This document shows, in pieces, positions 118 through 57,084 of a stretch of 64,000 nucleotides of DNA (positions are counted from its first letter, which is position 1; every line of letters starts with the position of its first letter). Where the stretch lies: contig CACZVM010000004.1 in assembly GCA_902784585.1 (NCBI GenBank), forward strand, positions 1-64,000, read 5' to 3'. Under the pieces are notes generated by a model. The model saw only the letters and a program-made list of their open reading frames with translations, was not told the DNA's origin and ran no database searches. Source of the DNA: an uncultured Bacteroidales bacterium. GTDB taxonomy: Bacteria; Bacteroidota; Bacteroidia; Bacteroidales; Paludibacteraceae. Both the position numbers and the translations under genes were made by a program.

Positions 118-152
118 GATTTATGATTTAAGATTTAGGATTGCAAATTCTT
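118..152. repeat. Heptad array, gatttat/gatttaa type
   Basis: Five 7-nt units (gatttat, gatttaa, gatttag, gattgca, aattctt) lie just outside the IS end and downstream of the RhuM/Fic gene. A near copy of the first units is found at 3527-3561 upstream of murB, so similar arrays flank the RhuM/Fic-murA-murB block. Confidence 0.7.
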
Positions 153-177
153 AAATTTTATCTCTTTTTCTCTCTCA

Positions 178-218
178 TCCCGGTAGTCCCTGACGCAAGT
201 CAAACTATCGGGTGTCGT
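178..218. terminator. Possible terminator hairpin
   Basis: CCCGGTAGT and ACTATCGGG pair (one G-T wobble) around a loop of about 16 nt. A T-rich stretch follows on the plus strand. It lies just beyond the stop of the RhuM/Fic gene, but the T-run is on the wrong side for that gene, so its direction of action is uncertain. Confidence 0.35.
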
Positions 219-232
219 TTTTATAGTACCCT

Positions 233-1237
233 TTAGTTCTTTTGGTTAATCAAGTTTACTACTACTTTGACCATGGTGTCTTTTTCTTCTGTGCGGCTTT
301 CGGCAATCATAAGGGTTAGTGCGACAAGGGTATTGTCTGCCAGACGCTTGGTACCATCTTCGCGGTAGAGAATGCCGTTGTTGTTTAAAAACCATAGAAA
401 CAGCGTAGCCGCGATGCGTTTGTTTCCGTCTGAAAAGGAGTGGTTCTTAGTCACCAAATACAGCAACATCGCTGCTTTCTCTTCCACACTCGGATAGAGG
501 TCCTTGCCTCCAAAGGTCTGATAAATCTGACCTATACTGCTTTTGAACGAATCGTCTTTCTCGTTTCCGAACAACGTACTACCGCCGAATTTCTCACGCA
601 GCGCGCTAATCGTTTGCATAGCATTCTCGTACGTAGCATGGAATCGTTCTTCGGGTGTTGTCTCTTTGACCGTCAAACGCTCGTAATCATAGTTGTCAAG
701 CGTGTCCAGCGCGTACGTGTAATCCAAAACCACATCAAAAATAGCCTGTGTTTCATCCTCACTCTCCACCGCTTTGCTTTGTACCGTCCTTCCTACAATC
801 TGAACCAACTGCCGTAAATCCGACAACTGCTCACGACGAATCTTTTCGTTGATGGCATAGCCTTTGACAATAAATTCTTTTAGAATCTTTGTTGACCACT
901 GTCGGAAAGCGATAGCACGCTTGGAGTTAACGCGGTATCCAATGGATAGAATCATATCCAAATTGTAAAAATCCAAATAACGTACAATTGTACGTTTACC
1001 TTCAATTTGAACTGTTTCCATTTTGGAAACTGTTGCGACCGGATTTAATTCTTCCTGACTAAATATATTGGCTATATGCTTGGAAACTGCAGCTTTTTTC
1101 ACACCAAACAATTCAGCAATTTGCTTTTGTGTCAGCCATACGGTTTCGTTCTCCATGCGCACATCGAGTTGTATCGTGTTGTCTTCTGCTCGATAGATGA
1201 TAATCTCGCCTCTATTTTCTATAGGTTTCTCGTTCAT
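233..1237 (-). CDS. RhuM-family DNA-binding protein with C-terminal Fic/Doc domain
   Basis: The protein has 334 residues from the chosen ATG. The N-terminal half matches the RhuM/COG3943 family: a helix-turn-helix region around WLTQKQIAELFGV, followed by YLDFYNLDMILSIGYRV. The C-terminal third carries the Fic-fold motif HSFSDGNKR at about residues 266-274. Having K rather than G at the eighth motif position resembles Doc toxins, which phosphorylate EF-Tu, more than AMP-transferring Fic enzymes. No separate antitoxin ORF is adjacent, so the N-terminal domain may provide autoregulation. A longer GTG start at 1285 would overlap murA by GTGA, but it lies upstream of a palindrome that looks like an operator. 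The toxin role is inference. Confidence 0.85.
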   Translation of the reverse strand: MNEKPIENRGEIIIYRAEDNTIQLDVRMENETVWLTQKQIAELFGVKKAAVSKHIANIFSQEELNPVATVSKMETVQIEGKRTIVRYLDFYNLDMILSIGYRVNSKRAIAFRQWSTKILKEFIVKGYAINEKIRREQLSDLRQLVQIVGRTVQSKAVESEDETQAIFDVVLDYTYALDTLDNYDYERLTVKETTPEERFHATYENAMQTISALREKFGGSTLFGNEKDDSFKSSIGQIYQTFGGKDLYPSVEEKAAMLLYLVTKNHSFSDGNKRIAATLFLWFLNNNGILYREDGTKRLADNTLVALTLMIAESRTEEKDTMVKVVVNLINQKN

Positions 1238-1259
1238 ACATATTCTCTTTTCTTGGGTA

Positions 1260-1274
1260 GTGCAAATTTTGCAC
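1260..1274. promoter_or_regulatory. Perfect 7-1-7 palindrome upstream of the RhuM/Fic gene
   Basis: GTGCAAATTTTGCAC is a perfect inverted repeat centred on base 1267, about 23 nt upstream of the ATG at 1237 and just after the murA stop. Its position and symmetry suit an operator bound by the helix-turn-helix half of the downstream protein. That function is inferred only from position. Confidence 0.35.
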
Positions 1275-2590: not shown

Positions 2591-3520
2591 TTAGATGTAA
2601 TTTACTTCGGGGTGAATATCTATATTGAATTTCTCTTTGACGCTTGCGCTGACCTGCGCCGCGAGGGCGATGATGTCCTCGGGCGTGGCGTGGTTGGCGT
2701 TGACGATGACCAGCGGTTGTTTAGGCCACACTTGCGCGCCGCCGAGCGTCTTGCCTTTCCATCCGCATTGCTCAATAAGCCAAGCAGCCGGTATTTTCAC
2801 ACCTTGCGGCGAGGAGAAATTAGGCATGTCAGGGTACAATTTAAGAAGTTCGTTCGCTTGCTCTTCGGGGATGAAGGGGTTCATGAAGAACGAGCCGGCA
2901 GAACCTACTTCGCCGACCGTAGGCAGTTTCGCCATGCGCGTCTGGATGATCTCCTCGCGGGTCTTGGATGCCTCGCCGGGTTTGACCTTATAGACCACCG
3001 AAGTGACGATATACTTACCTTTCAGTTCGTGTTTGAAAATACTATCCCTATAACCAAACTTACACTCCTCGTTGCTGAACACTCGTTCTTCCTGCGTCTC
3101 CACATCCATCGTATAAACGCGCTCAATCACATCTTTCGCTTCTACGCCGTACGCCCCGACATTCTGTACTGCCGAAGCCCCCACTTCGCCCGGGATGAGA
3201 CTCAGTTTCTCCATGCCGCAGTATGCCATATCGGTCAGTTGGGCAATGAGATCATCGAGCCGCAAGCCATTCTGCGCTTCCACCGTCTCATCGTCTATAA
3301 AACGTGCACGAGCCATGCCGGAATGCAAAATTATTCCGTTGAAATCGCGGGTAAAGAGCAGGTTTGACCCCTGCCCGATATGCAGGATCTGCTCGCCTTT
3401 ATGCTCTTTCAGCACTTGCCGCAACTCGTCCAGTGAGTAGTACTCGATGAACAGCCGCGCCTTGGCGTCCAGGCCGAAGGTGTTGTAGGGCAGAAGGGAT
3501 ATGTTTTCCTTAGTGGACAT
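2591..3520 (-). CDS. murB: UDP-N-acetylenolpyruvoylglucosamine reductase MurB
   Basis: FAD- and NADPH-dependent reduction of the MurA product to UDP-MurNAc. The 309 residues show NTFGLDAKAR at the N-terminus, the FAD-binding GQGSNLLFT, IPGEVGASAVQNVGAYGVE, and GSAGSFFMNPF with the catalytic serine region, then IPAAWLIEQCGWKG. The ATG at 3520 is the first start in a good N-terminal context. It lies directly upstream of murA and is probably co-transcribed. No clear -7/-33 pair was found in front of it; a heptad array occupies that space. Confidence 0.96.
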   Translation of the reverse strand: MSTKENISLLPYNTFGLDAKARLFIEYYSLDELRQVLKEHKGEQILHIGQGSNLLFTRDFNGIILHSGMARARFIDDETVEAQNGLRLDDLIAQLTDMAYCGMEKLSLIPGEVGASAVQNVGAYGVEAKDVIERVYTMDVETQEERVFSNEECKFGYRDSIFKHELKGKYIVTSVVYKVKPGEASKTREEIIQTRMAKLPTVGEVGSAGSFFMNPFIPEEQANELLKLYPDMPNFSSPQGVKIPAAWLIEQCGWKGKTLGGAQVWPKQPLVIVNANHATPEDIIALAAQVSASVKEKFNIDIHPEVNYI

Positions 3521-3804: not shown

Positions 3805-3856
3805 CGTAATCATAAAATAAAATATTTTTTTTATAATTTTTTGGTTTAATATATTT

Positions 3857-3891
3857 AATTTTTAATTTTGAATTTTTAATTTTTAATTTCA
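3857..3891. repeat. Heptad array at the nadE 3' end
   Basis: Five units of the aattttt/aattttg type abut nadE. The nadE stop codon (minus-strand TGA at 3889-3891) lies in the last unit. Confidence 0.65.
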
Positions 3892-8374: not shown

Positions 8375-9079
8375 TTAGATTTTGTAGGCGGTATAGATGA
8401 TGCTGATCCCGCAGCTGAGCGTACGGAAATGCTCGTCGCGGAAGCCGGCATCGCGGATATGCTGCACAAAGGCTTCTCCCCAACAGAAATGCTTGACGCT
8501 GCGGTTGAGGTAGGTATAGGCCGTCTTGTCGCGGCTCACTATCCTCCCCACCCAGGGCAGCACGTAGGAGAAATAGGCGTCGTACAGCGCACGCACGAGT
8601 CGGTTGGAGGGATAGCCGAACTCCAGTATGGTCAGCTGTCCACCAGGCCGTAGCACGCGATACATCTCGCGCAGGCCTGCGTCGAGGTCGCTGAAATTGC
8701 GGCATCCGTAGGCGCAGGTGACTGCATCGAACGAGGCGTCGGCGAAAGGCATCTGCTGGGCGTTGCCCTCAACAAAAGTCACGTTCATGCCACGCTTGGC
8801 ACACTTAGCCTGCCCGATACGCATCATCTCGGTAGATAGGTCGAGCCCCGTGACGCGCTGCGCCTTGCCGGCGCGGAGCATCGCGATCGTGAGATCGGCG
8901 GTGCCGACAGCTACATCCAGCACGTGGTCAGCAGGCTGCATGAGGCACACTGTCCTACGCCGCCAGAGGCGGTCGATAGACAAGGAAAGGCCATGGTTGA
9001 GCCCGTCGTAGGTAGCGGCAATTCGGTCAAACAGGTGGCCGATATGCTGCTTTTGCTGACTTATCTCTTGCGTTTTCAA
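8375..9079 (-). CDS. ubiE: Demethylmenaquinone methyltransferase (MenG/UbiE)
   Basis: SAM-dependent C-methylation of demethylmenaquinone, the last step of menaquinone synthesis. Motif I reads VLDVAVGTADL, followed by GLDLSTEMM, PFADASFDAVTCAYGCRNF and REMYRVLRPGG, the UbiE signatures. The open frame runs upstream to 9214, but that part crosses the gene's own promoter (9089-9119). The first in-frame start after it is TTG at 9079, giving 234 residues starting (M)KTQEISQQKQ, close to the family N-terminus. The predicted leader is only about 5 nt. Confidence 0.9.
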   Translation of the reverse strand: MKTQEISQQKQHIGHLFDRIAATYDGLNHGLSLSIDRLWRRRTVCLMQPADHVLDVAVGTADLTIAMLRAGKAQRVTGLDLSTEMMRIGQAKCAKRGMNVTFVEGNAQQMPFADASFDAVTCAYGCRNFSDLDAGLREMYRVLRPGGQLTILEFGYPSNRLVRALYDAYFSYVLPWVGRIVSRDKTAYTYLNRSVKHFCWGEAFVQHIRDAGFRDEHFRTLSCGISIIYTAYKI

Positions 9080-10895: not shown

Positions 10896-11753
10896 TTATA
10901 TAGTGTCGATAAAGAACTTCTGCTTGCGATTGAACATCGCTATGCCGAGCACGAGCAGCACGGCTATGACGGCTGCGCTGTAGCCCAGCGAAGTCCAGGA
11001 GAACTCACCCGCGCCGTAGGCACCATACTTGAACGTCTCGATGATAGCGGTCATGGGGTTGAAGAGCATGATATGATGCAGGGTGCGGTTGGTCACATAG
11101 CTGAGCGGATAGACGATAGGCGTAGCGTACATCCAGAGCGAGACGAACACGCCGAAGAAATTGGTCAGATCGCGATACTTGGTCGTCATGGACGATACCA
11201 TCAGTCCGAGACCCAAAGCCAGACACTGGATCATCAACACCAGCACGGGGAACAGGAGCAAGTACCACGTAGGACACAAGGCCACGCCGCGGAAGACGAA
11301 GAGCAGATAAACGATCACGAACGTGCCTAACTGCAGCGAGAAACGAAACAGCTTGGACGCCACCACCGAGACAGGACTCACCAGACGCGGGAAATAGACC
11401 TTGCCGAACAGGTTGGCATTGGTCTGGAACGTGCCGGAGACAGCAGTCAGGCACTCGGAGAAATACTCCCAGAGACAGATACCACTCAGGTAGAACACCG
11501 GTTGAGGTATGTCGTCGGTCGGGATCTCGGCGATGCGACCGAACACGACGATATACATGAACATCGTGAAGAGCGGCGAGATAAAATACCACCCCATACC
11601 GAAAATGGTCTGCTTGAACTGCACCGTGATATCACGCTTGATAAAAAGCCAAATCAGATACTTCTTCTGCCATAGCTCCTTCAGGCCTAATCCTTTCGCA
11701 AAAGTATTAGGCGATATTTCTGTAGTCCAATATGAGGATTGATTATTGGTCAT
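10896..11753 (-). CDS. ABC-2 type polysaccharide export permease (Wzm-like), copy 1
   Basis: Six-helix inner-membrane subunit of an ABC exporter for O-antigen- or teichoic-acid-like polymers. The 285 residues show FIKRDITVQFKQTIFGMGW, FYLSGICLWEYFS and NANLFGKVYFPRLVSP, the core signature of Wzm/TagG proteins. It is a paralogue of the next upstream gene (NADIFGKVYFPRIIMP there). Its start codon and first residues (MTNNQSS) are written by a heptad repeat that also abuts the upstream stop. No ATPase partner is encoded in the window. Confidence 0.88.
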   Translation of the reverse strand: MTNNQSSYWTTEISPNTFAKGLGLKELWQKKYLIWLFIKRDITVQFKQTIFGMGWYFISPLFTMFMYIVVFGRIAEIPTDDIPQPVFYLSGICLWEYFSECLTAVSGTFQTNANLFGKVYFPRLVSPVSVVASKLFRFSLQLGTFVIVYLLFVFRGVALCPTWYLLLFPVLVLMIQCLALGLGLMVSSMTTKYRDLTNFFGVFVSLWMYATPIVYPLSYVTNRTLHHIMLFNPMTAIIETFKYGAYGAGEFSWTSLGYSAAVIAVLLVLGIAMFNRKQKFFIDTI

Positions 11754-11775
11754 TAGTGATTTGTCATTGGTGATT
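11741..11775. repeat. Heptad array joining the two permease genes
   Basis: Units gattatt, ggtcatt, agtgatt, tgtcatt, ggtgatt. The array contains the start codon of permease copy 1 (11751-11753) and touches the stop of copy 2 (11775-11777). Confidence 0.75.
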
Positions 11776-17266: not shown

Positions 17267-17301
17267 CTTTAAACTTTAAACGTTCAACTTTAAACTTTAC
17301 A
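17267..17301. repeat. Heptad array between yceD and rpmF
   Basis: Units ctttaaa, ctttaaa, cgttcaa, ctttaaa, ctttaca. The stop codon of the DUF177 gene (minus-strand TAA at 17297-17299) is part of the array. Confidence 0.75.
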
Positions 17302-17734
17302 CTATCTCATCGGGTTCCGGCTCGTCACAAAGGTGATCATGGAGGAGAAGTTCCATCTGCTGGTTGCACTCACCCGCTTGGTGACAGTGAACGATCGGAA
17401 TGTTGATACTAGCTATTTCATATGCCAACCAGGACAGATCAAGGCACTCGTCTCCCGACTCTATGCTCTCTACTATCTCATCGTCAGCATCTATGTCAAC
17501 GGGCATCGGGTCGAGGCATCGGTCACACACAACAAAAACAGTTCCACGAACTGCAATGTTGAGCAGATAATCCTCCTCCCGGAGATTAAGCGTCGCTTGG
17601 CCAACCACCTTACCACTGAGAATCTCGGATTTCTCTTGCGCTGCAAAAAAATCGTCATCCAGCTCTACATCAAACTGATGCACGCCTATCGGCAGGCGCT
17701 TCAGGTCAATGATTGTATGGTTGTTTTCGCTCAT
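17297..17734 (-). CDS. DUF177/YceD family protein
   Basis: The protein has 145 acidic residues. The core RGTVFVVCDRCLDPMPVDID is the YceD signature, and a second Cys/His segment (HCHQAGECNQQ) lies near the C-terminus. Members of the family are linked to rpmF and 23S rRNA metabolism in bacteria and plastids. The promoter lies immediately upstream with a predicted leader of only about 12 nt, and the gene heads the yceD-rpmF operon. Confidence 0.88.
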   Translation of the reverse strand: MSENNHTIIDLKRLPIGVHQFDVELDDDFFAAQEKSEILSGKVVGQATLNLREEDYLLNIAVRGTVFVVCDRCLDPMPVDIDADDEIVESIESGDECLDLSWLAYEIASINIPIVHCHQAGECNQQMELLLHDHLCDEPEPDEIV

Positions 17735-25135: not shown

Positions 25136-26449
25136 ATGAAACAATCGTTAGATCAAAGTGCAAATAAGCACTACCTTTTCACAAGCGAATCGGTGTCGGA
25201 AGGACACCCGGACAAGGTGAGCGATCAGATCTCTGACGCCATCCTGGACAATATGTTGGCACAAGACCCGCAGGCCCACGTGGCCTGCGAGACTATGTGT
25301 ACCACCGGACAAGTGGTGATAGCTGGCGAAGTGACCTGCCGGGGATGGGTGGACGTACAGCAGATAGCACGTAAGACTATCGCCGAAATAGGCTACACCA
25401 AGGCAGAGTATAAATTTGAAGCGGAGAGTTGTGGCATACTGACCGCACTCCACGCACAGAGCCAGGACATCAACATGGGCGTGAGTCGTGCTACAGAGGA
25501 CGAACAGGGCGCCGGTGACCAAGGAATGATGTTCGGCTACGCCACCGACGAGACCGATAACTACATGCCGCTGACGCTGGACCTGGCCCACACTCTGGTC
25601 TATACGCTGGCACGTATTCGCAAAGAAGGCAAGCAGATGACGTATCTGCGGCCGGACAGCAAGAGTCAGGTGACAATCGAATATGATGAGTACAACAAAC
25701 CTGTGCGCATCGACACCATCGTGCTCTCGACACAACATGACGAAAATGTACAAAGTGACAAAGGACAATGTACAAAGGTAACACCGGAGCTGATCAAGCA
25801 AGATGTGATTGACATCCTCCTGCCCCGCGTGGCAACGCGTGACTCGCGCTACAGCCACCTGCTGCATGAATTTCTGAAAGACCCGCAGGCTAAGCTGCTG
25901 GTGAACCCAACCGGCAACTTCGTCATCGGAGGTCCGCACGGCGATACGGGATTGACCGGAAGGAAGATCATCGTAGATACTTACGGCGGTCGCGGTGCGC
26001 ACGGCGGCGGAGCGTTCAGCGGCAAAGACCCATCGAAAGTGGACCGTTCGGCCGCCTATGCTGCCCGCTGGATAGCCAAACATCTGGTGGCCGCAGGCGT
26101 GGCCCACGAGGCGCTGGTGCAAGTGAGTTATGCCATCGGCGTGGCTGAGCCAGTCTCGCTGTATGTCAACACCAACGGTACGGCGATGGTAGGCCTGAGC
26201 GACACAGAGATAGCACAACGCGTAGGCGAACTATTTGACCTGCGTCCGGCTGCTATCATCCGCAGCCTGAAACTGACCCAACCGATGTATCAGGAGACCG
26301 CCAAATACGGTCACGTGGGACGTACCAACGAGGTGGTAGAAAAGACCTTCCTGGACGCTGACGGAAAAGAATATACCCGCAAAGTAGAACTATTCACATG
26401 GGAGAAACTCGATCGATTGGACGAAGTAAAGGCCAAGTTTGGCTTGTAG
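25136..26449 (+). CDS. metK: S-adenosylmethionine synthetase
   Basis: Forms SAM from methionine and ATP. The 437 residues include [53 protein letters not shown] and [23 protein letters not shown], with all the usual motifs. Residues about 203-215 ([16 protein letters not shown]) are encoded by a heptad array and replace the normal charged loop after STQHDE. The 3' end overlaps lspA by 52 nt. Confidence 0.97.
25745..25779 (+). repeat. Heptad array inside metK
   Basis: Five units (aatgtac, aaagtga, caaagga, caatgta, caaaggt). The last 23 bases (25757-25779) are identical to 54536-54558 inside the second UDP-sugar dehydrogenase gene, but are read there in another frame. Confidence 0.8.
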
Positions 26450-26970
26450 TCTTGATCGTGCTGCTGGCCGTGACGGCCGATCAGGCACTCAAACTCTATA
26501 TTGCCACTCATTTTGCATTAGGCGAGAGCCACGAGATATGCTCGTGGTTCTGGCTCTGCTATATAGAGAACAACGGCATGGCCTTCGGCATCGAATGGTT
26601 CAGCAAGTTGGCACTAACGCTGTTTCGTCTGCTGGCTGTAGGACTGCTAGGATGGTATATCCATCTGCTGATCCACCGCGACCATGCCCGCACGGGTTAC
26701 ATCGCCACCATCGCCTTCATCATCGCAGGTGCACTGGGAAATATCATCGATTGCGTCGCCTACGGCAAGCTCTTCGGCTACGCCGGCTGGCTCTACGGAC
26801 GCGTGGTGGACATGTTCTACTTCCCGCTGATCCACAACAGCGCCGGCGAAGTGATCTTCTTCAGACCGGTGTTCAACCTAGCCGACAGTTGTATCACCTG
26901 CGCCGTGATAATGATCCTACTGTTCTATCTAAAAGATCTCAATCAGACACTGGAGAAAGGTGAAAAGTGA
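26398..26970 (+). CDS. lspA: Lipoprotein signal peptidase LspA
   Basis: Aspartyl peptidase that removes prolipoprotein signal peptides. The 190 residues and four helices carry the NNGMAFG motif, [10 protein letters not shown] with catalytic Asp118, and FNLADS with Asp163. The Arg often found after the first Asp is Cys here. The ATG at 26398 lies inside metK (52-nt overlap); homologous N-terminal sequence ([14 protein letters not shown]) begins within the overlap, so the overlap is probably real. The last codons and the stop are part of a heptad array. Confidence 0.93.
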
Positions 26971-26994
26971 AAGATGAAAGATGAAGGGTGAAAG
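26953..26994. repeat. Heptad array at the lspA / DUF4296 junction
   Basis: Six units (gagaaag, gtgaaaa, gtgaaag, atgaaag, atgaagg, gtgaaag). The array contains the lspA stop (TGA 26968-26970) and the ATG of the next gene (26981-26983). Confidence 0.8.
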
Positions 26995-27505
26995 GTACAT
27001 ATTCATCTGTGTTGTGTATGCCGTACTCTGTATACTGGCTTGCGGTTGCCGTCCGCGCGGAGTGCTTAGTTCGCGACAGATGCGGCGTGTGATGATCGAC
27101 CTGCATAAGACCGATGCGCTGCTGCAGGTATGCGGATTGCACACGGAACATGACTCAATAGAAGATGCCGCCTATGCGTCGGTGCTCGAGCGGCATGGTA
27201 TCACCCAAGCACAATTTGATTCCTCGCTGGTCTGGTATACCAACCATCCACAACTGTTTGACAAGATATATCCGAAGGTGTTGGCGGCATTGAACGACGA
27301 GAACCAAGCCTTCAGTCAGGCGCACGCAGACGAACTGGAAGTGCCGGCTATAGCGGAAGAGAACGCAGCTGCCATGCCGCTAAGTGACGACCAAGCCAAG
27401 GAAGCCATCGACCGCCTGCTATGGGTGAACCGCCACGGGCTACCCTCCTTATGGAACGAACGGCCGGCCTCTTCGCCAACCGTACGTATTCCCTACTCGC
27501 TTTAA
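26981..27505 (+). CDS. DUF4296 family lipoprotein
   Basis: The protein has 174 residues with a lipoprotein signal (YIFICVVYAVLCILACGC). The mature part contains MRRVMIDLHKTDALLQV and SVLERHGITQAQFDSSLVWYTNHPQLFDKIYPKVL, the DUF4296 pattern common in Bacteroidota next to lspA. Its function is unknown. The start codon is supplied by the heptad array. Its last codon overlaps the end of the convergent holA by 4 nt. Confidence 0.82.
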   Translation: MKGERYIFICVVYAVLCILACGCRPRGVLSSRQMRRVMIDLHKTDALLQVCGLHTEHDSIEDAAYASVLERHGITQAQFDSSLVWYTNHPQLFDKIYPKVLAALNDENQAFSQAHADELEVPAIAEENAAAMPLSDDQAKEAIDRLLWVNRHGLPSLWNERPASSPTVRIPYSL

Positions 27506-30004: not shown

Positions 30005-31125
30005 ATATGATCTACTTGCTCAAGCGACAAGTCGTAGTAAAGCGGCAGACGTACCAGGCAGTCCGCATAGCGATCGCACTCAGGCAGAGCGCGGCCGTCG
30101 TGACGCGTGTGGTAATAGGGGCTGCTATGCAGACTCAGATAATGGAATACGGCCTGCGCCCCCTGCTCACGCAGATGGGCTATCAGTCCCGTTCGTGCCT
30201 CCAAGTTCGGCAACACGAGATAAAACATATGCGCGTTATTGGTGGCATAGTCAGGAATATCCGGCAGAGAGAAGAGTCCCTTGGCGGCCAGAGGCTGCAG
30301 GCGTTCCCAATAACGCTGCCAGAGCGCTTTTCGCTTGGATTGTATATCCTCTATGTTCTCCAGTTGAGCCCATAGGAAAGCCGCATTCACCTCACTAGGC
30401 AAGAAACTCGAGCCCTTGTCCACCCATCCGTACTTGTTCACTTCGCCGCGGAAGAACTCAGCGCGGTTGGTGCCTTTCTCCCAAAGAATCTCAGCGCGAC
30501 GCACGAACCGCTCGTCGTTAACGACCAGCAGACCACCCTCACCGCCGGCGGTGATATTCTTCGTCTCATGGAAAGAGAAAGCCGCGAGGTGGCTAATACC
30601 ACCTAATGGTGACTGGTGATTGGTGATTGGTGATTGATAATAACTATCTATCGCCTGCGCTGCATCCTCCACCACCAACAGATTGTGTTTCTTCGCCACA
30701 GCCATGATGGCATCCATATTACAAGCCACGCCGGCATAATGGACGGGGACGATGACCCGTGTACGCGGAGTGACGAGCGACTCCAGCGTGTCTGCATCGA
30801 TATTCGGATTGCGCTGCATCGAATCGGCAAACACCACCTTAGCTCCTTCACGCAGGAATGCGAGAGCCGTACTGACGAAGGTATAGCTAGGGATGATGAC
30901 TTCATCATCCGGCTGCAGATCGCACAGCATCGCGCACATCTCCAGTGCATCGGTGCCGCTGGTGGTCAGCAAAGTCTTACGGAAACCGTAACGCTCCTGG
31001 AACCACTGCTGGCAACGCTTGGTGAACTTACCGTTGCCCGACAACTTGCATTCATAGACAGCCTCATACATATAGTGGGCTTCCTTACCCGTCAGATGAG
31101 GTTTGTTAAAGGGAATCTGTATCAT
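29974..31125 (-). CDS. wecE: WecE-type sugar aminotransferase (DegT/DnrJ/EryC1 family)
   Basis: PLP-dependent amination of a 4-keto-6-deoxy sugar nucleotide. The 383 residues begin MIQIPFNKPHLTGKE, and TSGTDALEMCAM, PSYTFVSTA, VVEDAAQ and FSFHETKNITAGGEGG (PLP lysine Lys189) match WecE closely. The open frame continues upstream to 31362 but crosses the next gene, so the ATG at 31125 with a 4-nt overlap is chosen. Residues 163-173 (YQSPITNHQSP) are encoded by a heptad array replacing the short loop found in E. coli WecE. Confidence 0.9.
   Translation of the reverse strand: MIQIPFNKPHLTGKEAHYMYEAVYECKLSGNGKFTKRCQQWFQERYGFRKTLLTTSGTDALEMCAMLCDLQPDDEVIIPSYTFVSTALAFLREGAKVVFADSMQRNPNIDADTLESLVTPRTRVIVPVHYAGVACNMDAIMAVAKKHNLLVVEDAAQAIDSYYQSPITNHQSPLGGISHLAAFSFHETKNITAGGEGGLLVVNDERFVRRAEILWEKGTNRAEFFRGEVNKYGWVDKGSSFLPSEVNAAFLWAQLENIEDIQSKRKALWQRYWERLQPLAAKGLFSLPDIPDYATNNAHMFYLVLPNLEARTGLIAHLREQGAQAVFHYLSLHSSPYYHTRHDGRALPECDRYADCLVRLPLYYDLSLEQVDHICEAIATYYR
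30607..30641 (-). repeat. Heptad array inside wecE
   Basis: Units tggtgac, tggtgat, tggtgat, tggtgat, tgataat on the plus strand. They are read on the minus strand as residues YQSPITNHQSP without interrupting the frame. Confidence 0.85.
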
Positions 31126-39615: not shown

Positions 39616-39650
39616 ATCAACAATTACAAATTACCAATCACAAATTTCTA
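39616..39650. repeat. Heptad array at the galE 3' end
   Basis: Units atcaaca, attacaa, attacca, atcacaa, atttcta. The galE stop (minus-strand TGA at 39638-39640) and its last residues come from the array. Confidence 0.7.
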
Positions 39651-40670: not shown

Positions 40671-40698
40671 ATTCAGTGTTCAGTGTGCTGTATTCAGA
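40671..40698. repeat. Heptad array between galE and the nucleotidyltransferase gene
   Basis: Units attcagt, gttcagt, gtgctgt, attcaga. The stop codon of the upstream nucleotidyltransferase gene (40694-40696) lies in the last unit. Confidence 0.65.
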
Positions 40699-42720: not shown

Positions 42721-43992
42721 TTAGTTTGTTTCGTTTTTGATGACCAGACGCGCCGTGCGACGGGTGGTCTGACTAAGCATGATAGTGCGTCCTGCGCGGG
42801 CGCGGTCGAGTATCTCAGGAGTAGTTCCTCGAATCGTAAGGAGGGACAATTGGTCGTTGTAAGAGACCAGAAAATGTTCTTTCAGCGCCTCGATAGCCGC
42901 CGGTACGAATCGTGTGTTGTCCACACAGACAGATATAGTGACGGCAGAAGACTGAATGAGTGATACGCGCAGGCGATGGCGATGGATAATATCGAAGATC
43001 TCGCTCAGACTCTCCTCGAGTACGAAAGCGAAGTCCTTGGCACGCATCGTGATGAGCAGCTGATTCTTGCGCCATATAAAGACCGGCACTTCTACGGGGT
43101 GGTCCACCGCAGCAGAAATACACGATCCTCCGGCCTCGGGATTTCCGAACGGCTTGACATAGAGAGGTATACGCTTGTTCTCCAGCGGACGGATGGTCTT
43201 GGGGTGAATGATCTGCGCTCCCGAATAGCTTAGTTCGACAGCATCGGAGTAGCGCAACTCGGGAATGAGGATCGTATCCGGTTCCAATCGCGGATCGGCA
43301 TTGAGTATGCCCGGCACATCCTTCCATATAGTGACGCTCTCCGCATCGAGGTAATTGCCCAGCAGCGCGGCGGTATAGTCGGATCCCTCCCGACCGAGCG
43401 TCGTGCGGCGTCCGTCGGCTGTACCACCTATGAAACCCTGCGTCACTACCACCTGTGGCCGATTCGACCGTTGCCAACCGGCCCGAATAGCCGCAGCACT
43501 GGCGGCATTGTCCACTTGGGCTTCGCGCCAGGTGTCATCGGTGCGCAGCAGTTTAGGCATATTCCACCACTCCACCGACAAGCCCTGCTTGAGCAGATAG
43601 ACGGCGATGATCTGGGTGGACATGATCTCACCCAGCGAGACGATCTGGTCGTAGTTCTCGTCGTAGGAGCGTGCAGGATCGTATGGTATCTCGCCCTGCA
43701 GGCGGATGTCAGAGCCTGGTTGGAGTCCCAACTCACGCATGATAGCTACATGGAAGTCGATGATATCCACCCACTGGTTGAGAGCCTCTTCCTCTTTGCC
43801 GGCATGGATGAACTCCAGCACTCGTTCGAGTGCATTGGTGGTCTTACCCATAGCCGAGACAACGACCATGAGTGAATGGTCATTGGTCATTGGTGATTGG
43901 TCATTGACGGCCAACCGCACAATATGCTCCAAGTTACGGACGCCTGCTGCGTCCTTCACCGACGCTCCACCAAACTTATATACTATAGCCAT
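42721..43992 (-). CDS. lysC: Aspartate kinase
   Basis: First step of the Lys, Thr and Met pathway. The 423 residues carry YKFGGASVKDA, VVVSAMGKTTNAL, TLGREGSDYTAALLGNYL and the C-terminal ACT region (TISVCVDNTRF). It is a monofunctional enzyme, not fused to homoserine dehydrogenase. Residues 30-39 (NDQSPMTNDH) are written by a heptad array inserted between the first helix and the VVVSAM strand. It lies between ribH and the YitT gene in the long minus-strand run. Confidence 0.93.
   Translation of the reverse strand: MAIVYKFGGASVKDAAGVRNLEHIVRLAVNDQSPMTNDHSLMVVVSAMGKTTNALERVLEFIHAGKEEEALNQWVDIIDFHVAIMRELGLQPGSDIRLQGEIPYDPARSYDENYDQIVSLGEIMSTQIIAVYLLKQGLSVEWWNMPKLLRTDDTWREAQVDNAASAAAIRAGWQRSNRPQVVVTQGFIGGTADGRRTTLGREGSDYTAALLGNYLDAESVTIWKDVPGILNADPRLEPDTILIPELRYSDAVELSYSGAQIIHPKTIRPLENKRIPLYVKPFGNPEAGGSCISAAVDHPVEVPVFIWRKNQLLITMRAKDFAFVLEESLSEIFDIIHRHRLRVSLIQSSAVTISVCVDNTRFVPAAIEALKEHFLVSYNDQLSLLTIRGTTPEILDRARAGRTIMLSQTTRRTARLVIKNETN
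43877..43904 (-). repeat. Heptad array inside lysC
   Basis: Units tggtcat, tggtcat, tggtgat, tggtcat (plus strand). In frame, encoding residues 30-39 of aspartate kinase. Confidence 0.85.
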
Positions 43993-46625: not shown

Positions 46626-49600
46626 TGTACGTATTGAGCGTAGTCGTTATAGTATTTCTCGACGATGTCGTGTGCACCATTGCGTTCGCAGGTCTGCAGG
46701 ACATAGTTGAGGATAGCTGCTTCGCGCCCGGTGGTGGACTGCATCAGGTCACGTTGACGCCGATCAAGCGAGCGCGCGAAACGCAGGTACTCGACGCAGG
46801 TATTAGCCACTGTATCCATGATAGCGACAGCCTTGTCCTTCTGGTCGAGCATGAAATACATGGCGGCCATGGATGCAGAAGTGTAGTCGTAGGGGATGTT
46901 ATATCCCGGCAGCTGCTCTTCGGCATAGTCGAGTACTTCGAGTGCTTTGTCGCGTTGCCCCGTACGCAGCAGTTCTTCCGCCAGTTGGGCGAACATCATA
47001 CGATGTGTGCGGCACATGCGCATCAAGTTCTCGTCGATATAAATGCCCGGGATGTTCATGTTGCCATAGCGGAACTTATGCATCATGTTGTCGTACATCT
47101 TCTCAGCATTGACGCGGGGTTGTCCGTCGTAGCTGCGTGTGGGCGTGATCTGATAAGCCAGACCCGTCAGTTCCATATAGGGTTCGAGTCCCAAATAATA
47201 GTCGTTGCCCACAGTGGCGCAGAAATACATGGGGCGTTGCCAATGATTGGAAGAAAGCATCTCCATGATCATCATCTCCGAACGGGTGTAGTGGCGTTTC
47301 TGCTTGAAGTTAACGCGTTCGCCGTCAGGAGTCTCCACGTAGAGTTGGTCGGACGGCAAGTAGTTGTCGCCTTCGCGGGTCTTGGTACGCGGGTCTTCGG
47401 AGCGGAGGAAAGCAAAAGCTTTCTCCACGCTGATGGGTTGTCCCAGACGGTTGTCCACACGGGCTATCTCGTTCGCACCGGGCATATAATCCTTGTATTC
47501 CCAACAGATGGGCAGCGCGGGTGAGAGGTAGTACGGACGCTTCATCTGCGCGATATACCAGTCGGTCTGCAGATACGAGAGGTTGCAGACACGGATGTCG
47601 GTACCTACTTCTTCCACCTCCTGGTTGTACCAAAGTGGGAAGGTATCGTTGTCGCCGTTGGAGAAGAGGATAGCTTCGCCTTCGCAGGACTTGAGGTAGT
47701 TCGCGCCGAAGTCGCGGCAGCTGTAGCGCTGCGAGCGGTCGTGGTCGTCCCAGTTCTGCTGTGCCATGAGAGCAGGTACGCCAAGGCATATCAGAGATAC
47801 GCAGACGGCAGCAGCCGTCATTGGTAATTGGTGATTGGTGATTGGTGATTTTTCTATCGCGCTGTTGATCCAATCGATCAGAGCGAGTACACCGAGTCCA
47901 ATCCAGATGCAGAAGGCGTAGAACGAGCCGGCGTAGGCGTAGTCACGTTCACGCGGTTGGTAGGGCGTCTGGTTGAGGTAGAGCACGATGGCCAAACCCG
48001 TCAGGAAGAAGAGCAAGAAAGTCAGCGTGAAGTTCTTCCAACCCTCGGCCTTGCCGTCGTTATCGCGTTTGCCACACTGCCATACAATACCGATGATACC
48101 AAGCAGCAGCGGCAGCATATAATAGACATTGTGCCCCTTGTTCTCCTTGAGTTCGGTAGGCAGCAGGCTCTGATCGCCGAGCATGGCATTGTCGATGAAC
48201 GGAATGCCGCTGATCCAGTTACCCTTGGTGATGTCACCATAGGACTGCAGGTCGTTCTGGCGGCCGGCGAAATTCCACATGAAATAGCGCCAGTACATGA
48301 AGTTGACCTGATAACGGAAGAAGAAACGAAGGTTCTCGGCAAACGTCGGACAATAGTCCGTCTTCTGCTGTCCGCAGTATTCGTAGCGCACACGACGTCC
48401 CTTGATGTTAGCCCACTCCTTGTAGGCACTGACATGACTTCCCTGGGCAGAGTACATGCGCGGGAAGAGCATGCAGAACTGCGGCATATACTGATAGCTG
48501 GACTTGTAGCCGGTGATAGCATAATGGTCTTTCTCGCCTTCCACCTTCGGTGCCGGAGCATACTGGGCATGGCCTTGTTTCTCAACAGGCACGCACATGT
48601 TACCCTCGATGCGCAGTTCTACTGGTGCATTATAGGTCTGGCCGTAGAACAAAGGCCGATCGCCATACTGCTCGCGGTTGAGGTAATACTTGAGCGAGAA
48701 GACATTATCAGGGCTGTTCTGGTCCATCGGCGTATCCGCATTGGAACGGATGACGAGTGCAGCATATGAACTATAGCCAACCAAGATGACGGTGAGCGCC
48801 AGTACGGCTGTGTTCGCCCATCGCCAGAGCTGTTTGTTGGTATTGGTCTTGGCGTTGGCTTCGTATTCCACGTTGGCACGTTTATGCGTGTACCAGATAG
48901 CCCACGAGATCGCACCTACGATCAGCACGAGGCATACCCACATACCTGTATTGAACGGACATCCGAAGCCGTTGACGAACAGGAGTTCGAACCAACCGAT
49001 CAACGTCGGGAAGCCAGGGATGATGCCATAGAGGATGACAAGCAACACCGCACACGAAGCCAGGAAAGCATAGATGAGGCCCTTCCACGAGAATGTGTAC
49101 TTACGGAAGTAATAAACGAGTCCGATGGCCGGTATGGTCAACAGGTTCAGAAGGTGGACACCGATACTCAGACCCATCAGGTAAGCGATGGCGATGAGCC
49201 ATTTGTCAGAGCCCTCCTCGTCAGCCTGTTCGTCCCACTTGAGAATAAGCCAGAAGACGACGGCAGTAAAGAGGGATGAGCTGGCATATACTTCGCCTTC
49301 GACAGCAGAGAACCAGAACGTGTCGCTGAAGGTGTAAGCCAATGCACCTACCGCACCTGCACCCAGCAAAGCGATGCCTTTCCATGTGGTGTCCGGCGCC
49401 ACCAGCTTCTTCGCCAGGGCCGTGATGGTCCAGAAGAGGAAGAGGATGGTGAATGCGCTGGCCAGCGCCGAGAGGGCGTTGACGCACATGGCGACATGCG
49501 AGGTGTCGGATGCAAACAGACTGAAGAAATGGCCCATCAGCATGAAGAACGGTGCTCCAGGCGGGTGTCCTACGTCCAACTTCCATGCGCTGGCGATGAA

Positions 49601-49862: not shown

Positions 49863-49917
49863 TAATCACCTACTAATAACCTACTAATCACCTACTAATA
49901 ACCTACTAATCACCTAC
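49863..49917. repeat. Five tandem 11-bp units
   Basis: taatcacctac and taataacctac alternate (a 22-bp super-period) in the 313-nt gene-free space between the WG-repeat gene and the DUF2723 promoter. No other feature was seen here apart from that promoter and the terminator hairpin at 49963-49984. Confidence 0.85.
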
Positions 49918-49962
49918 TAATGTCGTACTACAGATAGGTCATACGATGGATAATATGAAAAG

Positions 49963-53569: not shown

Positions 53570-54325
53570 ATGATTAAAGTTGGAATTATTGGGTGTGGCT
53601 TCGTAGGAGGAGCCCTGAAAAATTGGTTGGAGAACAACAACCCGGAGTGCAAACTGTTCATCAGCGACCCGTACAAGGGTTACAATGATGACTTGAGCGA
53701 TATCGACATCGCTTTCTTGCAGATCCACGTACCGACGGAAGAGGATGGTACCCAGGATTTGACGCTGATGAAGGAGTTGATCAAGAACTTGCCGGATGTG
53801 CCAGTGTTCGTTCGTACGACCATTCTGCCGGGCACGAGCAAGATGCTGTCGGAAGAGACCGGTCACAGCGTGTATTACATGCCGGAGTTCCTGACCGAGC
53901 GTACGTTCATCGAGGACTTCAACAAGCAGACGATGGTGTTCACCGGTGCACAGGAGTTGTTGACAAAGATCTTCGTGGGTAAGAAATTCACCGTAATGAC
54001 TCCGCTGGAGGCAGAGCTGACAAAATACATGCACAATGTGTTCGGTGCATACAAAGTGACGTATTTCAATGCCTGCAAGGAATATTGCGAGAAGATGGGT
54101 GCCGACTGGCGCAAAGTACACACGGGTGTTCTGCTGTCGGGTTACATCAACGACACGCACACGTATGTTCCCGGTCCGGACGGCAAGTACGGATACGGAG
54201 GCAAGTGCTTCCCGAAGGATGTGAATGCGTTTGCAGAGATGACCAAAGGTACGTCGCTGGGTACGCTGCTGGAACACCTGCACGAACTGAATGTGCATTT
54301 CCGTGGCGTGGAAGAGCGGATCTAA
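53570..54325 (+). CDS. Short UDP-sugar dehydrogenase-like protein
   Basis: The protein has 251 residues. The Rossmann start VGIIGCGFVGGALKNWL, VRTTILPGTSKML, MPEFLTERTFIEDF, AELTKYMHNVFGAYKVTYFN and the catalytic-cysteine motif YGGKCFPKD are those of UDP-glucose/GDP-mannose dehydrogenases, but the C-terminal third (UDP-binding domain) is absent. Because the motifs and frame are intact and the usual stop is followed by a heptad array, it looks like a stable short form, not a recent truncation. It is the first gene of the plus-strand locus. Confidence 0.82.
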   Translation: MIKVGIIGCGFVGGALKNWLENNNPECKLFISDPYKGYNDDLSDIDIAFLQIHVPTEEDGTQDLTLMKELIKNLPDVPVFVRTTILPGTSKMLSEETGHSVYYMPEFLTERTFIEDFNKQTMVFTGAQELLTKIFVGKKFTVMTPLEAELTKYMHNVFGAYKVTYFNACKEYCEKMGADWRKVHTGVLLSGYINDTHTYVPGPDGKYGYGGKCFPKDVNAFAEMTKGTSLGTLLEHLHELNVHFRGVEERI

Positions 54326-54359
54326 ATTAAGAATTAAAAATTAAGAATTAAAAATTCTT
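54325..54359. repeat. Heptad array between the two dehydrogenase genes
   Basis: Units aattaag, aattaaa, aattaag, aattaaa, aattctt. It fills the whole gap and touches both the upstream stop and the downstream ATG. Confidence 0.8.
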
Positions 54360-55625
54360 ATGAAAATTGCTGTAGCAGGAACAGGGTATGTGGGACTGAG
54401 TATCGCTACCCTACTGGCACAACATAACGAGGTGACGGCGGTGGATATCGTGCCAGAGAAAGTGGAGATGATCAACCGGCGCCAGTCGCCTATCCAGGAC
54501 GAGTGGATAGAGAAATACTTCGAGAAGGACAAAGGGACAAAGGACAATGTACAAAGGTTTCTCCACCTCGAGGCAACACTCGATGCGGAGGCGGCGTATA
54601 AGGATGCGGAGTATGTGGTGATAGCTGCGCCGACCAACTATGACAGCAGATTGAATTATTTCGACACCTCGGCCGTAGAGAATGTGATCGAGACCGTAAT
54701 GCGCGTCAATCCGAAGGCGATCATGGTGATCAAATCGACTATCCCGGTGGGCTATACCGAGAGCGTGCGCAAGAAATATGCGTGCGACAACATCCTCTTC
54801 TCGCCGGAGTTTCTGCGTGAGAGCAAGGCACTGTATGACAACCTGTATCCGAGCCGTATCATCGTAGGTACGGTGCTGACAGATCAGCGTTTGACGGCCG
54901 CAGCCGAACGATTTGCCTCGTTGCTACAGGAAGGCGCAATCAAGGAGGATATAGAGACGCGTATCATGGGACAGACCGAAGCCGAGGCGGTGAAGCTGTT
55001 TGCCAACACCTATCTGGCGCTGCGTGTGAGTTACTTCAACGAACTGGACACCTACGCAGAGATGAAAGGTCTGGATACGCAGTCGATCATCGACGGCGTG
55101 TGTCTGGATCCGCGTATCGGCACGCACTATAACAACCCCTCGTTCGGATACGGCGGTTACTGTCTGCCGAAAGACACGAAGCAGCTGCTGGCCAACTATG
55201 CCGACGTGCCGGAGAACCTGATAGGTGCCATCGTGGAGAGTAACCGTACGCGGAAAGATTTTATCGCCGACCGCGTGCTGGCTAAGGCCGGATATTATGA
55301 CTACTACCACAAGGGCGATTTTGATGCCAAGCAGGAACATGACTGCACGATAGGCGTTTACCGACTGACGATGAAAGCCAACAGCGATAACTTCCGTCAA
55401 TCGAGTATACAAGGCATCATGAAGCGAGTGAAAGCCAAGGGTGCGCAGGTGATCATCTACGAACCGACGCTGGAGGACGGCAGCACGTTCTTCGGCAGTC
55501 TGGTGGTGAACGACCTGAGCGAGTTCAAGCGCCGCAGCCAGGCCATCATAGCCAATCGCTATGACACGAGTCTGGACGACGTGAAGGAGAAGGTTTACAC
55601 TCGCGACATATTCCGGAGAGACTGA
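54360..55625 (+). CDS. UDP-glucose/UDP-sugar 6-dehydrogenase, full length
   Basis: Oxidises a UDP-hexose to the uronic acid. The 421 residues include [54 protein letters not shown], the catalytic Cys motif [11 protein letters not shown] and the C-terminal UDP-binding domain ([19 protein letters not shown]). This is the Ugd group found in capsule loci. Residues about 57-67 (GTKDNVQRF) come from a heptad array that shares 23 bases with metK. Confidence 0.93.
54527..54558 (+). repeat. Heptad array inside the full-length dehydrogenase gene
   Basis: Units ggacaaa, gggacaa, aggacaa, tgtacaa, aggt. Bases 54536-54558 equal 25757-25779 in metK. Confidence 0.8.
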
Positions 55626-55632
55626 TTCATAA

Positions 55633-55709
55633 TTTGTAATTGGTGATTGGTGATTGGTAATTGGTGATTGGTAATTGGTAATTGGTGATTGGTAATTGGT
55701 AATTGGTAA
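55633..55709. repeat. Eleven-unit heptad array upstream of the flippase gene
   Basis: The largest array in the window: units ttggtga and ttggtaa in irregular order, with a degenerate first unit. It lies between the dehydrogenase stop and the flippase start, ending 9 nt before the TTG start codon. Confidence 0.9.
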
Positions 55710-55718
55710 TTTGAGATT

Positions 55719-57077
55719 TTGGCAGAGAAGATAGAACATATAGGCAAGCGGGAGATCATGTGGAGTTATGCAGGCACGGCGTTTATGATCGGAGCCGGTG
55801 TGCTGCTGTTGCCGTTTATCCTGCACAAGATGCCACAAGAGACGGTGGGAATTTGGAATATCTTCCAGACCATCACGGCGCTGGTGCTGCTGTTGGATTT
55901 CGGTTTCCGTCCCACCTTCGCCCGTAACATCAGTTATATCTTCTCCGGCGTGAAGACGCTGCAGAAGGACGGCGTGGAGCAGACGACGAGTGACGCAGCG
56001 GTGGACTATAGTCTGCTGAAAGGTTCGTTGCTGGCCATGCGCCGTTTCTATCGCTGGATAGGCATCGTGGTGTTTACTGTGCTGGCTACTGCAGGTACGG
56101 CTTATTTCTACTATATTCTGCAGAAATATTCCGGAGACAGGCAGGACGCTCTGGTGGCATGGATATTACTGATTGCCATCAACTGCTATAACCTCTACAC
56201 GTTCTATTACGATGCACTACTGACCGGAAAAGGGTATGTCACCCGCACGCAACAGATCAATATGTTGGGTCAAGGGGTGTATTTCGGATTAGCCGTCGCC
56301 CTGATTTATGCCGGTTTCGGCTTGACAGCCATCGTGGCTTCGCAACTTATATCTACCATCATTCGCCGTGTACTCACCTATCGAGTGTTCTTCACTCCGG
56401 AGATCAAACAACGACTGAATGAAGTAGAGCCGCAGGAACCGAAAGCCATACTGAGCACAATCACGCCGAACGCGATCAAGATCGGTTTAACGCAAGCAGG
56501 CGGTTTTCTGGTGAACAAATCCGCCATCCTCATCGGTTCGGCCTTTCTGACGCTGGAAGAAGTGGCATGTTACGGTATCACCTTGCAGGTGATGGATATA
56601 CTGGCACGCTGTGCCATGGTTTTCTATCAATCGTACCTACCGAAGTTGGCACAATGCCGTGCGGAGAAAGACCTGATAGGACTGAAGCGCTATTATCTGC
56701 AGTGTACAGGCAGTCTGCTGGCAGTGTATATCGTCGGCGGTGCCCTGTGGGTGTTCTTCGGCAATTGGGCCATGGACCTGATTGGCAGTCAGACCTATTT
56801 TGTGCCGACGGCGATGCTCTGTGTGATGCTCGTCATCAGCCTATTGGAACATAATCATGCACAATCGGCAGGGTTCATCATGGCGGACAACAAGATTCCA
56901 TTCTTCATCCCGAGTCTGGCCAGTGGTGCAGCTACGGTGGTGCTGCTGTGGTTGTTCCTGGGTCCGTTGCACTGGGGCGTATGGGGACTGATTCTTGCTC
57001 CGGGTCTGGCACAACTGGCATATCAGAACTGGAAGTGGCCGAGCGTAGTGATAAAGGAATTAAGAATTGAAAAATAA
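55719..57077 (+). CDS. Polysaccharide flippase (Wzx-like, MOP superfamily)
   Basis: The protein has 452 residues with about 12-14 helices. MWSYAGTAFMIGAGVLLLPFIL and VGIWNIFQTITALVLLLDFGFRPTFARNISY are typical N-terminal flippase segments. It would move undecaprenyl-linked repeat units to the periplasm. The start is probably TTG at 55719 just after the heptad array; ATG at 55758 is the alternative and would drop 13 residues. Its last codons (ELRIEK) lie in another array. Confidence 0.86.
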   Translation: MAEKIEHIGKREIMWSYAGTAFMIGAGVLLLPFILHKMPQETVGIWNIFQTITALVLLLDFGFRPTFARNISYIFSGVKTLQKDGVEQTTSDAAVDYSLLKGSLLAMRRFYRWIGIVVFTVLATAGTAYFYYILQKYSGDRQDALVAWILLIAINCYNLYTFYYDALLTGKGYVTRTQQINMLGQGVYFGLAVALIYAGFGLTAIVASQLISTIIRRVLTYRVFFTPEIKQRLNEVEPQEPKAILSTITPNAIKIGLTQAGGFLVNKSAILIGSAFLTLEEVACYGITLQVMDILARCAMVFYQSYLPKLAQCRAEKDLIGLKRYYLQCTGSLLAVYIVGGALWVFFGNWAMDLIGSQTYFVPTAMLCVMLVISLLEHNHAQSAGFIMADNKIPFFIPSLASGAATVVLLWLFLGPLHWGVWGLILAPGLAQLAYQNWKWPSVVIKELRIEK

Positions 57078-57084
57078 GAATTGA
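57057..57084. repeat. Heptad array at the flippase / glycosyltransferase junction
   Basis: Units gaattaa, gaattga, aaaataa, gaattga. It contains the flippase stop and the TTG start codon of the next gene (57081-57083). Confidence 0.7.

Follow-up and report, generated by a model that had tools for sequence, protein, structure and literature searches.

Background

Tandem arrays of 7-nt units (heptads) are known from several groups of bacteria, and here we compare with them the heptad tracts of a 64,000-nt stretch of DNA (the window: positions 1 to 64,000 of contig CACZVM010000004.1, assembly GCA_902784585.1) from an uncultured Bacteroidales bacterium of the Paludibacteraceae, of the genome holding it (G000; 1,634,244 bases (1.63 Mb), 21 contigs, 79% complete) and of its relatives. 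MacGregor (2015; PMC4679880) reported TAACTGA arrays near start codons in marine Beggiatoaceae, cyanobacteria and five Bacteroidetes, with other heptamers in Bacteroidetes, and Rehm (2015; PMC4692102) described GGGAATC / GGGGA(C/T)T repeats of Xanthomonas and Nostoc, which prefer four units and are rare between divergent genes; the latter source also gives three different heptanucleotide units for Calothrix (statements on PMC4679880, PMC4692102 and PMC4060949 refer throughout to the parts of these papers that were available). For the heptanucleotide surplus of many bacteria, noted in scattered lineages in 2007, polymerase slippage was proposed by Mrazek (2007, as cited in PMC4679880 and PMC4692102), with the guess that the 7-nt step reflects how much DNA the polymerase holds; tests of this mechanism are not met with in the available parts of the two citing papers, and that of PMC4060949 does not single out heptamers.

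With a tandem 7-nt surplus and a mainly non-coding position, the tracts of G000 carry both marks of bacterial heptameric short tandemly repeated repetitive sequences (STRR) or long simple sequence repeats (LSSR) in the wide sense. Their likeness to the described systems is as follows: i) cyanobacterial STRR also consist of tandem 7-nt units with several words per genome (PMC4692102), but G000 has 78 consensus units among 280 tracts, mostly of 3-5 copies (217 of the 280 tracts have 3-5 units), the comparison being one of descriptions only; ii) the TAACTGA repeats (PMC4679880) stand just before start codons, which many G000 tracts reach although many begin at the stop codon and both strands occur; they are likewise patchily spread, have other heptamers alongside and show 7-nt indels (between two Cyanothece strains), but there one word is in focus, and its canonical form is absent from the 78 consensus units; iii) the GGGNATC repeats (PMC4692102) share the four-unit preference, the position near start or stop codons, the rarity between divergent genes and the variation of the same junctions in length and sequence across two species, but they form G-quadruplexes, whereas the main families of G000 (AATT-, ATTGGT-, GAAAGG- and CTGAA-type) have no G runs; iv) LSSR (Mrazek 2007) share the 7-nt surplus in many genomes and the slippage idea, but as described in the available parts of PMC4679880 and PMC4692102 they are not linked to junction replacement or tract copying. 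G000 holds five GGGTTAC-type tracts; one called gene (C2:5811-6488) contains three tracts of this type, potentially G-quadruplex forming.

New beyond the known heptamers are the many-word genome, the single junctions that are empty, filled or refilled, the whole-tract copying and the constant core. In the open-licence literature searched, no description was found of genomes with many heptad words whose tracts turn over at junctions and are copied. A model's earlier reading of the window, made from the letters without database searches (the sequence-only reading), knew of no described mechanism in Bacteroidota for making many different heptads; TAACTGA and other heptamer direct repeats have been reported there, and slippage has been proposed for the heptanucleotide surplus of many bacteria (PMC4679880).

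Results and discussion

Period 7 dominates the genome

The tract census covered 1,173,559 of the 1,634,244 G000 bases; tracts were called at a lag score of at least 10, with a stricter level of at least 16 and one Markov-1 simulation as control. At the lower level 280 tracts were found at lag 7 versus 38, 33 and 50 at lags 6, 8 and 11 and a single lag-7 tract in the control, and at the stricter level the respective numbers were 151, 4, 16, 29 and 0. Periods 14 and 21, the multiples of 7, gave 192 and 134 tracts. The period-7 surplus is strong and genome-wide, and the excess over periods 6 and 8 on which the sequence-only reading had staked its claim is there, genes and gaps being counted together. 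As a correction to that reading, periods 8 and 11 are raised as well, beside period 7. Period 11 is the next commonest class in G000 after 7 and its multiples 14 and 21, and one period 11/22 tract, TAATCACCTAC, lies at window positions 49863-49921.

We read the tracts as short heptad spacers, commonly of 28-38 nt, that come into being at gene junctions, spread, and there give way to others, and put the probability of this reading at about one half. A heptad-generating process and whole-tract copying would act together, filtered by translation: replication or repair enzymes may copy tracts via short core homology (template switching between AATT cores), one-unit slippage would tune tract length, short-tract homologous recombination may swap junction alleles among species, and an AT-rich tract without a Shine-Dalgarno (SD) motif would be a tolerated ribosome entry spacer.

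Junctions of the rnf operon are empty, filled or refilled

Junctions were compared in a set of 110 rnf loci, with the operon of G000 at C4:147-152 kb; the closest RnfC proteins (80-89% identity) belong to uncultured Bacteroidales and Paludibacteraceae, several annotated as ruminant gut. Each junction was scored as array (period 7, 8 or 11), compact or other. Near-duplicate rows are kept in the counts of spacer length, motif and best period, and the tree retained 46 of 63 rows, a row being dropped if less than 30% filled or more than 98.5% identical to a kept row.

The compact state differed by junction: at rnfB/rnfC it was a 4-nt ATGA overlap (6/31 in-group rows and 13/22 near out-group rows), at rnfD/rnfG a 10-13-nt SD spacer (44/49 in-group rows, all 44 with GGAG or GAGG), and at rnfE/rnfA TAA-TT-ATG or similar. 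Five of the 49 rnfD/rnfG spacers were longer, three of them scoring period 7 and none carrying GGAG or GAGG. In-group rnfE/rnfA lengths (n=47) were at most 6 nt in 18 rows, 19-21 nt in three, 28-38 nt in 23 and longer in three, with none of 7-18 nt. Other species carried heptad spacers of different families at the same rnf junctions, often of 28-38 nt. Among in-group spacers of at least 20 nt (n=132) the best period was 7 in 59, 8 in 14, 11 in 10, 13 in one and none in 48; the out-group spacers of that length (n=116) gave 7 in 8, 8 in 7, others in 6 and none in 95, and shuffling of the in-group spacers left period 7 in 2/132.

On the tree, rnfB/C (16 array, 11 compact and 6 other in 33 rows) required 11 changes of state and rnfE/A (13, 14 and 15 respectively in 42 rows) 16; rnfD/G and rnfC/D showed 6 and 7 changes on the 46-row tree. 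Completely different junctions were found in loci a few percent apart (L121/L122 at rnfB/C and rnfE/A, L123/L142 at rnfB/C, and L106/L182 at rnfC/D and rnfE/A). One and the same junction holds a compact state or different heptads among related species. The sequence-only reading had asked for array gain and loss to be compared at orthologous junctions, where the arrays indeed differ between species and are not fixed; its suggestion of a common process that holds the period at 7 as the sequence changes is supported by different families at orthologous junctions with period 7 dominant.

Tracts of the window

The window was scanned with Tandem Repeats Finder (score 30) and with our own lag-7 score, of which a value of 8 is reached by 0.8% of 3000 random 46-nt window stretches. 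Tandem Repeats Finder gave 52 rows, 14 of them of period 7. Each scan recovered 15 of the 19 arrays named by the sequence-only reading: Tandem Repeats Finder (14 as period 7, and 11741 as period 14) missed 15997, 17050, 43991 and 57057, and a lag-7 score of 8 was reached by all except 17050, 25745, 43991 and 57057. The arrays at 17050, 43991 and 57057 were thus missed by both scans, which disagree on 15997 and 25745. Ten window tracts had a lag-7 score of at least 10. The tracts are listed below (strand in brackets; a point where none is given).

113..142 (.), heptad tract TTTATGA, found by Tandem Repeats Finder and lag-7 score
3527..3559 (.), heptad tract GATTTAA in the gap of genes 2591-3520 (-) and 3889-5820 (-), lag-7 score 8.5
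3851..3889 (.), heptad tract TTTAATT in the same gap, of genes 2591-3520 (-) and 3889-5820 (-)
11738..11775 (-), heptad tract AATCACC/AATGACC, end of gene 11775-12629 (-) over the called start of 10896-11753 (-), period 14 in Tandem Repeats Finder
17267..17303 (.), heptad tract CTTTAAA between 16034-16987 (-) and 17297-17734 (-)
25748..25777 (+), weak ACAAAGG/ACAATGT-family tract inside the open reading frame (ORF) 25136-26449, lag-7 score only 7.0, matching the tract at 54525
26952..26996 (+), heptad tract GAAAGGT spanning the stop of 26452-26970
30607..30636 (-), in-gene tract, AATCACC on the gene strand, gene 29974-31125
39622..39646 (.), heptad tract AATTACA at the junction 38611-39612 (-) / 39638-40666 (-), lag-7 score 9.5
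40672..40697 (.), heptad tract TTCAGTG at the junction 39638-40666 (-) / 40694-41593 (-), lag-7 score 8
43877..43906 (-), in-gene tract, CAATGAC on the gene strand, gene 42721-43992
47817..47850 (-), in-gene tract, AATCACC on the gene strand, gene 46622-49714
54325..54356 (+), tract of AATTAAG/AATTAAA heptads lying in a gap of 34 nt before the UDP-glucose dehydrogenase gene
54525..54557 (+), ACAAAGG/ACAATGT tract within the UDP-glucose dehydrogenase gene, whose length exceeds that in 20 of 29 relatives by 9 codons
55630..55719 (+), ATTGGTN, ~12 units, longer than any other window tract, in the gap of 93 nt that follows the UDP-glucose dehydrogenase gene

A SAM-II riboswitch (Rfam) lies at 25080-25139, at the start of the ORF 25136-26449 that carries the weak tract at 25748.

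In the gap upstream of the dehydrogenase gene (54325), relatives keeping the upstream gene have either AATTAAA, GATTTAA, GTCGAAA, CTGAATA, AGTTAAA, AAATCAT, AATTTTT or ATTCACA heptads or only 1-2 nt from stop to ATG. At the in-gene site 54525, 20 of the 29 relatives show the short form, eight are longer by 5-20 codons and one is cut by a contig end; the inserts of the relatives are known by length, and some do not look heptad-derived.

Position, strand and translation

Genes were called with our own simple ORF model and no published gene finder. Co-directional gaps hold 154 of the 280 G000 tracts and called genes 103, convergent and divergent gaps have 12 and eight, and three tracts are at contig edges, which agrees with the earlier notice of arrays both at gene junctions and inside genes. 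As the four classes comprise 88, 1050, 9.2 and 24.3 kb, the densities are 1.75, 0.10, 1.3 and 0.33 tracts per kb respectively; 174 of the 277 placed tracts are outside called genes, i.e. in ~1/10 of the G000 sequence. A tract was present in 137 of 732 co-directional gaps. Many of the printed G000 spacers are spanned by a tract all the way from one gene's stop codon to the following start codon; many tracts reach the ATG, many begin at the stop codon, and both strands occur.

A stop codon in the unit was found in the sense strand only in 58 co-directional spacer tracts, in the antisense only in 33, in both in 56 and in neither in seven, and the respective numbers for in-gene tracts were 19, 70, 7 and 7. 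Tract orientation is filtered by translation, stop-containing strands being favoured in spacers and stop-free ones in genes, although the bias is partly definitional because a stop-free tract lengthens the gene call. AATCACC/GGTGATT-type tracts are mostly on one strand of several contigs, as a replication-strand polarity might produce, but GC skew is weak and the contigs are unoriented. Where a tract lay 15 nt or less from an ATG, the leaders had a GC content of 0.235 and an SD-like motif in 1/65, compared with 9.7% of 237 compact junctions and 4.5% of 111 tract-free gaps of 20-60 nt.

The tracts might instead be functional RNA or DNA sites, near start codons, to which a post-transcriptional regulator or a ribosomal protein binds, a role that MacGregor proposed for TAACTGA. 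The stop-to-start position, the depletion in divergent gaps, the AT-rich leaders without SD and the constant cores of the units (below) all suit such sites; we nevertheless hold them to be improbable, since one genome contains many unlike families, families switch at the same junction between close species, and tracts also occur in genes, mostly with the stop-free strand. Real and shuffled tract-junction leaders were equal in predicted structure (minimum free energy -9.81 vs -9.79), and none of 23 close tract pairs in G000 match inverted within one mismatch.

Units form families with a constant core

Among sampled array pairs of G000, 14.5% had consensus units within one mismatch, compared with 4.3% when 7-mers were drawn at random with matching composition. 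For ATTGGTN in G000 (66 tracts, 299 units), constancy at the six core positions is 93-100%, and the seventh position has G in 56% of units and A, C and T 80, 34 and 19 times; AATTNNN (78 tracts) varies mainly at its three N positions and TACACCN in G740 at the last two, the family rule leaving N free by construction. Within tracts, 89 of 145 mismatches of G000 ATTGGTN units against their own consensus fell on the seventh position, a figure inflated because variant units duplicate; such duplication is not the source of the agreement over 66 loci. When all longer tracts were taken together, 52% of the mismatches in G000 and 49% in G740 fell on the leading position, where 39% was expected. The sequence-only reading had called the units unrelated in sequence, which is too strong: the words are not simply unrelated but form recurrent families with a constant core and position-specific variation at one to three positions. 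Either copying supplies the words from a common pool, or the process itself requires the core.

Length steps and slippage

At rnfB/C, spacers of the AATTTTT family measured 20, 27, 34 and 41 nt (one was of 35) and those of the AAATGG family 39, 46, 53, 53 and 53 nt; the length difference was a multiple of 7 in 14/29 same-family pairs. Moreover unit mismatches in G000 grew with a unit lag of 1-4 (1.10, 1.29, 1.48 and 1.58). From these length ladders and the similarity of neighbour units, slippage by one unit probably occurs.

Local replication slippage with a preferred 7-nt step might then account for everything, much as Mrazek (2007) proposed in general terms, tracts growing in place from a chance seed and families reflecting sequence bias. 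We regard this as possible but unlikely. The decay of unit similarity along the tract and the step-of-7 ladders at rnfB/C are what it predicts. It also requires no repair defect, because mutL is present in 21/21 genomes tested and loops of 7 nt probably evade mismatch repair; loss of mismatch repair was rejected as a cause on the same mutL count. On the other hand, stepwise growth would be expected to leave rnfE/A spacers of 7-18 nt, unless selected against, and none of 47 had such a length, nor does slippage alone explain the same variable position over the 66 loci of ATTGGTN. The rnfE/A length void fits insertion of ready tracts or selection against short spacers.

Whole tracts are copied in relatives

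Similarity across junctions was assessed with 62 spacers of 38 loci. The longest shared string had a mean of 12.8 nt for spacers of the same genome (31 pairs) and 6.8 nt for different genomes (1206 pairs), and when genomes were permuted within a junction the mean was 7.36 (sd 0.90), with 0/2000 trials reaching 12.8. This likeness within genomes argues against slippage alone.

An exact 30-mer stands in three junctions of one rnf operon (L123, genome G737). It occurs 15 times in G740 (the genome of locus L126), eight times in G737, three times each in G742 and G751, twice in G738 and once in each of four others, and was absent from G000 and 11 others of the 21 genomes searched, with no match of the reversed control. 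Thirty of its 35 places came with loci, and 29 distinct contexts were read. AA precedes the 30-mer in 26/29 contexts, which therefore have AATT at the left end and so at both ends. By eye, similar heptads go on in the flanks in four (L255, L258, L265 and L277) and L274 borders another heptad family; the remaining flanks differ from one another, a few orthologous junctions apart. ORFs end within ~30 nt of the left end in 17/29 contexts and start within 60 nt of the right end in 15/29. The 15 exact copies of this four-unit tract in G740, with unlike flanks in the 10 read, are a further difficulty for slippage acting alone.

In G740 (388 kb, 135 period-7 tracts), 33 tract pairs shared at least 28 nt and 17 shared at least 32 nt, compared with 14-18 and 3-7 respectively in four unit-order shuffles. 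A CGT spacer in this genome stood at the end of a four-core AATT window in seven cases and in its middle in two. A second string, AAATGGTAAATGGTAAATGA, had 10 and eight copies in two genomes and 0-5 in 19 others. Whole-tract copying is shown in relatives and not in G000 itself, where there was no excess over unit-order shuffling, a result that slippage alone would predict; regional spread from neighbouring tracts likewise gave no signal in G000.

Since the same junctions are empty, filled or differently worded in species a few percent apart and tracts are copied within a genome, the origin of these repeats is directly testable by strain comparison. The junctions also offer a natural experiment on the replacement of operon spacers and ribosome entry sites.

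A more far-reaching proposal is that a novel, host-encoded copying process writes ready tracts of about four heptads into junctions from elsewhere in the genome, joins them at a core such as AATT and misreads particular unit positions, whereby lineages would acquire word sets of their own and compact or SD junctions would be exchanged for heptad spacers. We consider this proposal doubtful.

Probable exchange of junctions between species

Three comparisons of loci bear on such exchange: i) between L123 and L142, the rnfB end and first rnfC codons beside the spacer are strongly diverged and the rest of the stretch is nearly identical, the junction region of L123 being nearest to L117 (88% over 146 nt, vs 70% to the sister L142); ii) the rnfC/D spacers of L182 and G000 have one difference, though the surrounding 160 nt are 81% identical; iii) a 66-nt stretch covering the rnfB/C spacer and the rnfC start is 98.5% identical in L122 and L192. 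Judged from these alignments, short-tract recombination would be the best account of the L123/L117, L182/G000 and L122/L192 likeness.

Evidence weighing against turnover of spacers

Several results weigh against our reading of the tracts as spacers that arise, spread and are replaced: i) period-8 and period-11 spacers occur at rnf junctions of some relatives; ii) tracts below ~2.5 units fall under the search threshold; iii) 126 of 186 co-directional G000 gaps of 20-60 nt are without a detected tract, and tract-free gaps of this size are also SD-poor (the 4.5% above); iv) length differences are a multiple of 7 in only 22/105 rnfC/D and 4/29 rnfE/A pairs, under a loose family rule; v) in the six ATTGGTN tracts of G740 the seventh position takes only 5/18 mismatches; vi) L123 supplies six of the 31 same-genome pairs, and the permutation leaves relatedness in; vii) shared strings of at least 30 nt in G000 number 44, vs 56 and 51 after unit-order shuffling, and closeness of two tracts there brought no greater likeness (p 0.21); viii) where distant species have equal array alleles, the cause may be old age with uneven loss and not exchange.

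Palindromic elements and enzymes

Repetitive extragenic palindromic (REP) elements, linked to RAYT transposases, are short dispersed intergenic sequences with a palindromic unit of ~20-40 nt. The heptad tracts differ from them in being direct repeats, the ~43-bp palindrome of G000, CCCCTTCCGTCTAGGGTTTCCCCG...CGGGGACACCGTCA, being a separate element. Copies of the palindrome stand at C1:6247, C1:11725, C1:159852, C1:161665, C3:132734, C4:120848, C6:25309, C7:72036, C8:39200, C8:52732, C9:61538 and C15:33282 of G000 (loci L229-L251), and 1-3 copies were found in nine other genomes of the same genus, of 150.

This palindrome might be a mobile element that carries the tracts, lying as it does within ATTGGTN tracts: 11 of its 12 copies in G000 have ATTGGTN units on at least one side. 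Several observations make this highly improbable: i) nine of 11 copies in other genomes are without surrounding heptads; ii) G002, G004, G006 and G012 have TTGGTGA tracts but no element; iii) no Y1 transposase match was found in G000 (79% complete); iv) neither G000 nor any of the eight relatives tested from the rnf loci gave a reverse transcriptase match. Y1 transposase matches were present in 8/13 genomes tested, G740 having one weak match. For the reverse transcriptase domain RVT_1, the nine genomes without a match (G000 and the eight relatives) include G740 and G737; overall 2/13 genomes, both tract-bearing and of other families, had one. Templating of the repeats by a reverse transcriptase (diversity-generating or telomerase-like) was rejected on the lack of RVT_1 in G000 and the eight relatives. 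A hairpin of AATCGTTCCCC-GGGGATAAGAA type lies at G000 C2:37575, C6:26214, C1:129170, C2:58132 and C4:6225 (the last in the window), two copies being within AATTTTG tracts.

Spread of heptad tracts

The word TTGGTNA was found in 12/296 genomes of the phylum (7/140 genera), five of the 12 also matching the reversed control. A scan of the order with the AATT pattern was positive in 164/295 genomes with many control matches and is a poor guide: among five strongly positive genomes sampled, G076 (GC 0.27) had one period-7 tract in 28 kb, and G130 (GC 0.22) and G095 (GC 0.61) had none in 18 and 40 kb respectively. Five 20-kb samples of genomes without AATT-pattern matches contained no tracts. G265 and G310, the other two of the five strongly positive genomes and members of other families, had eight and nine period-7 tracts in 60 and 28 kb, with several different heptads. 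Heptad tracts are patchy over the order and beyond. At L220:1540-1630 and 8396-8480 of G265, two close pairs of heptad tracts are inverted and could form hairpins.

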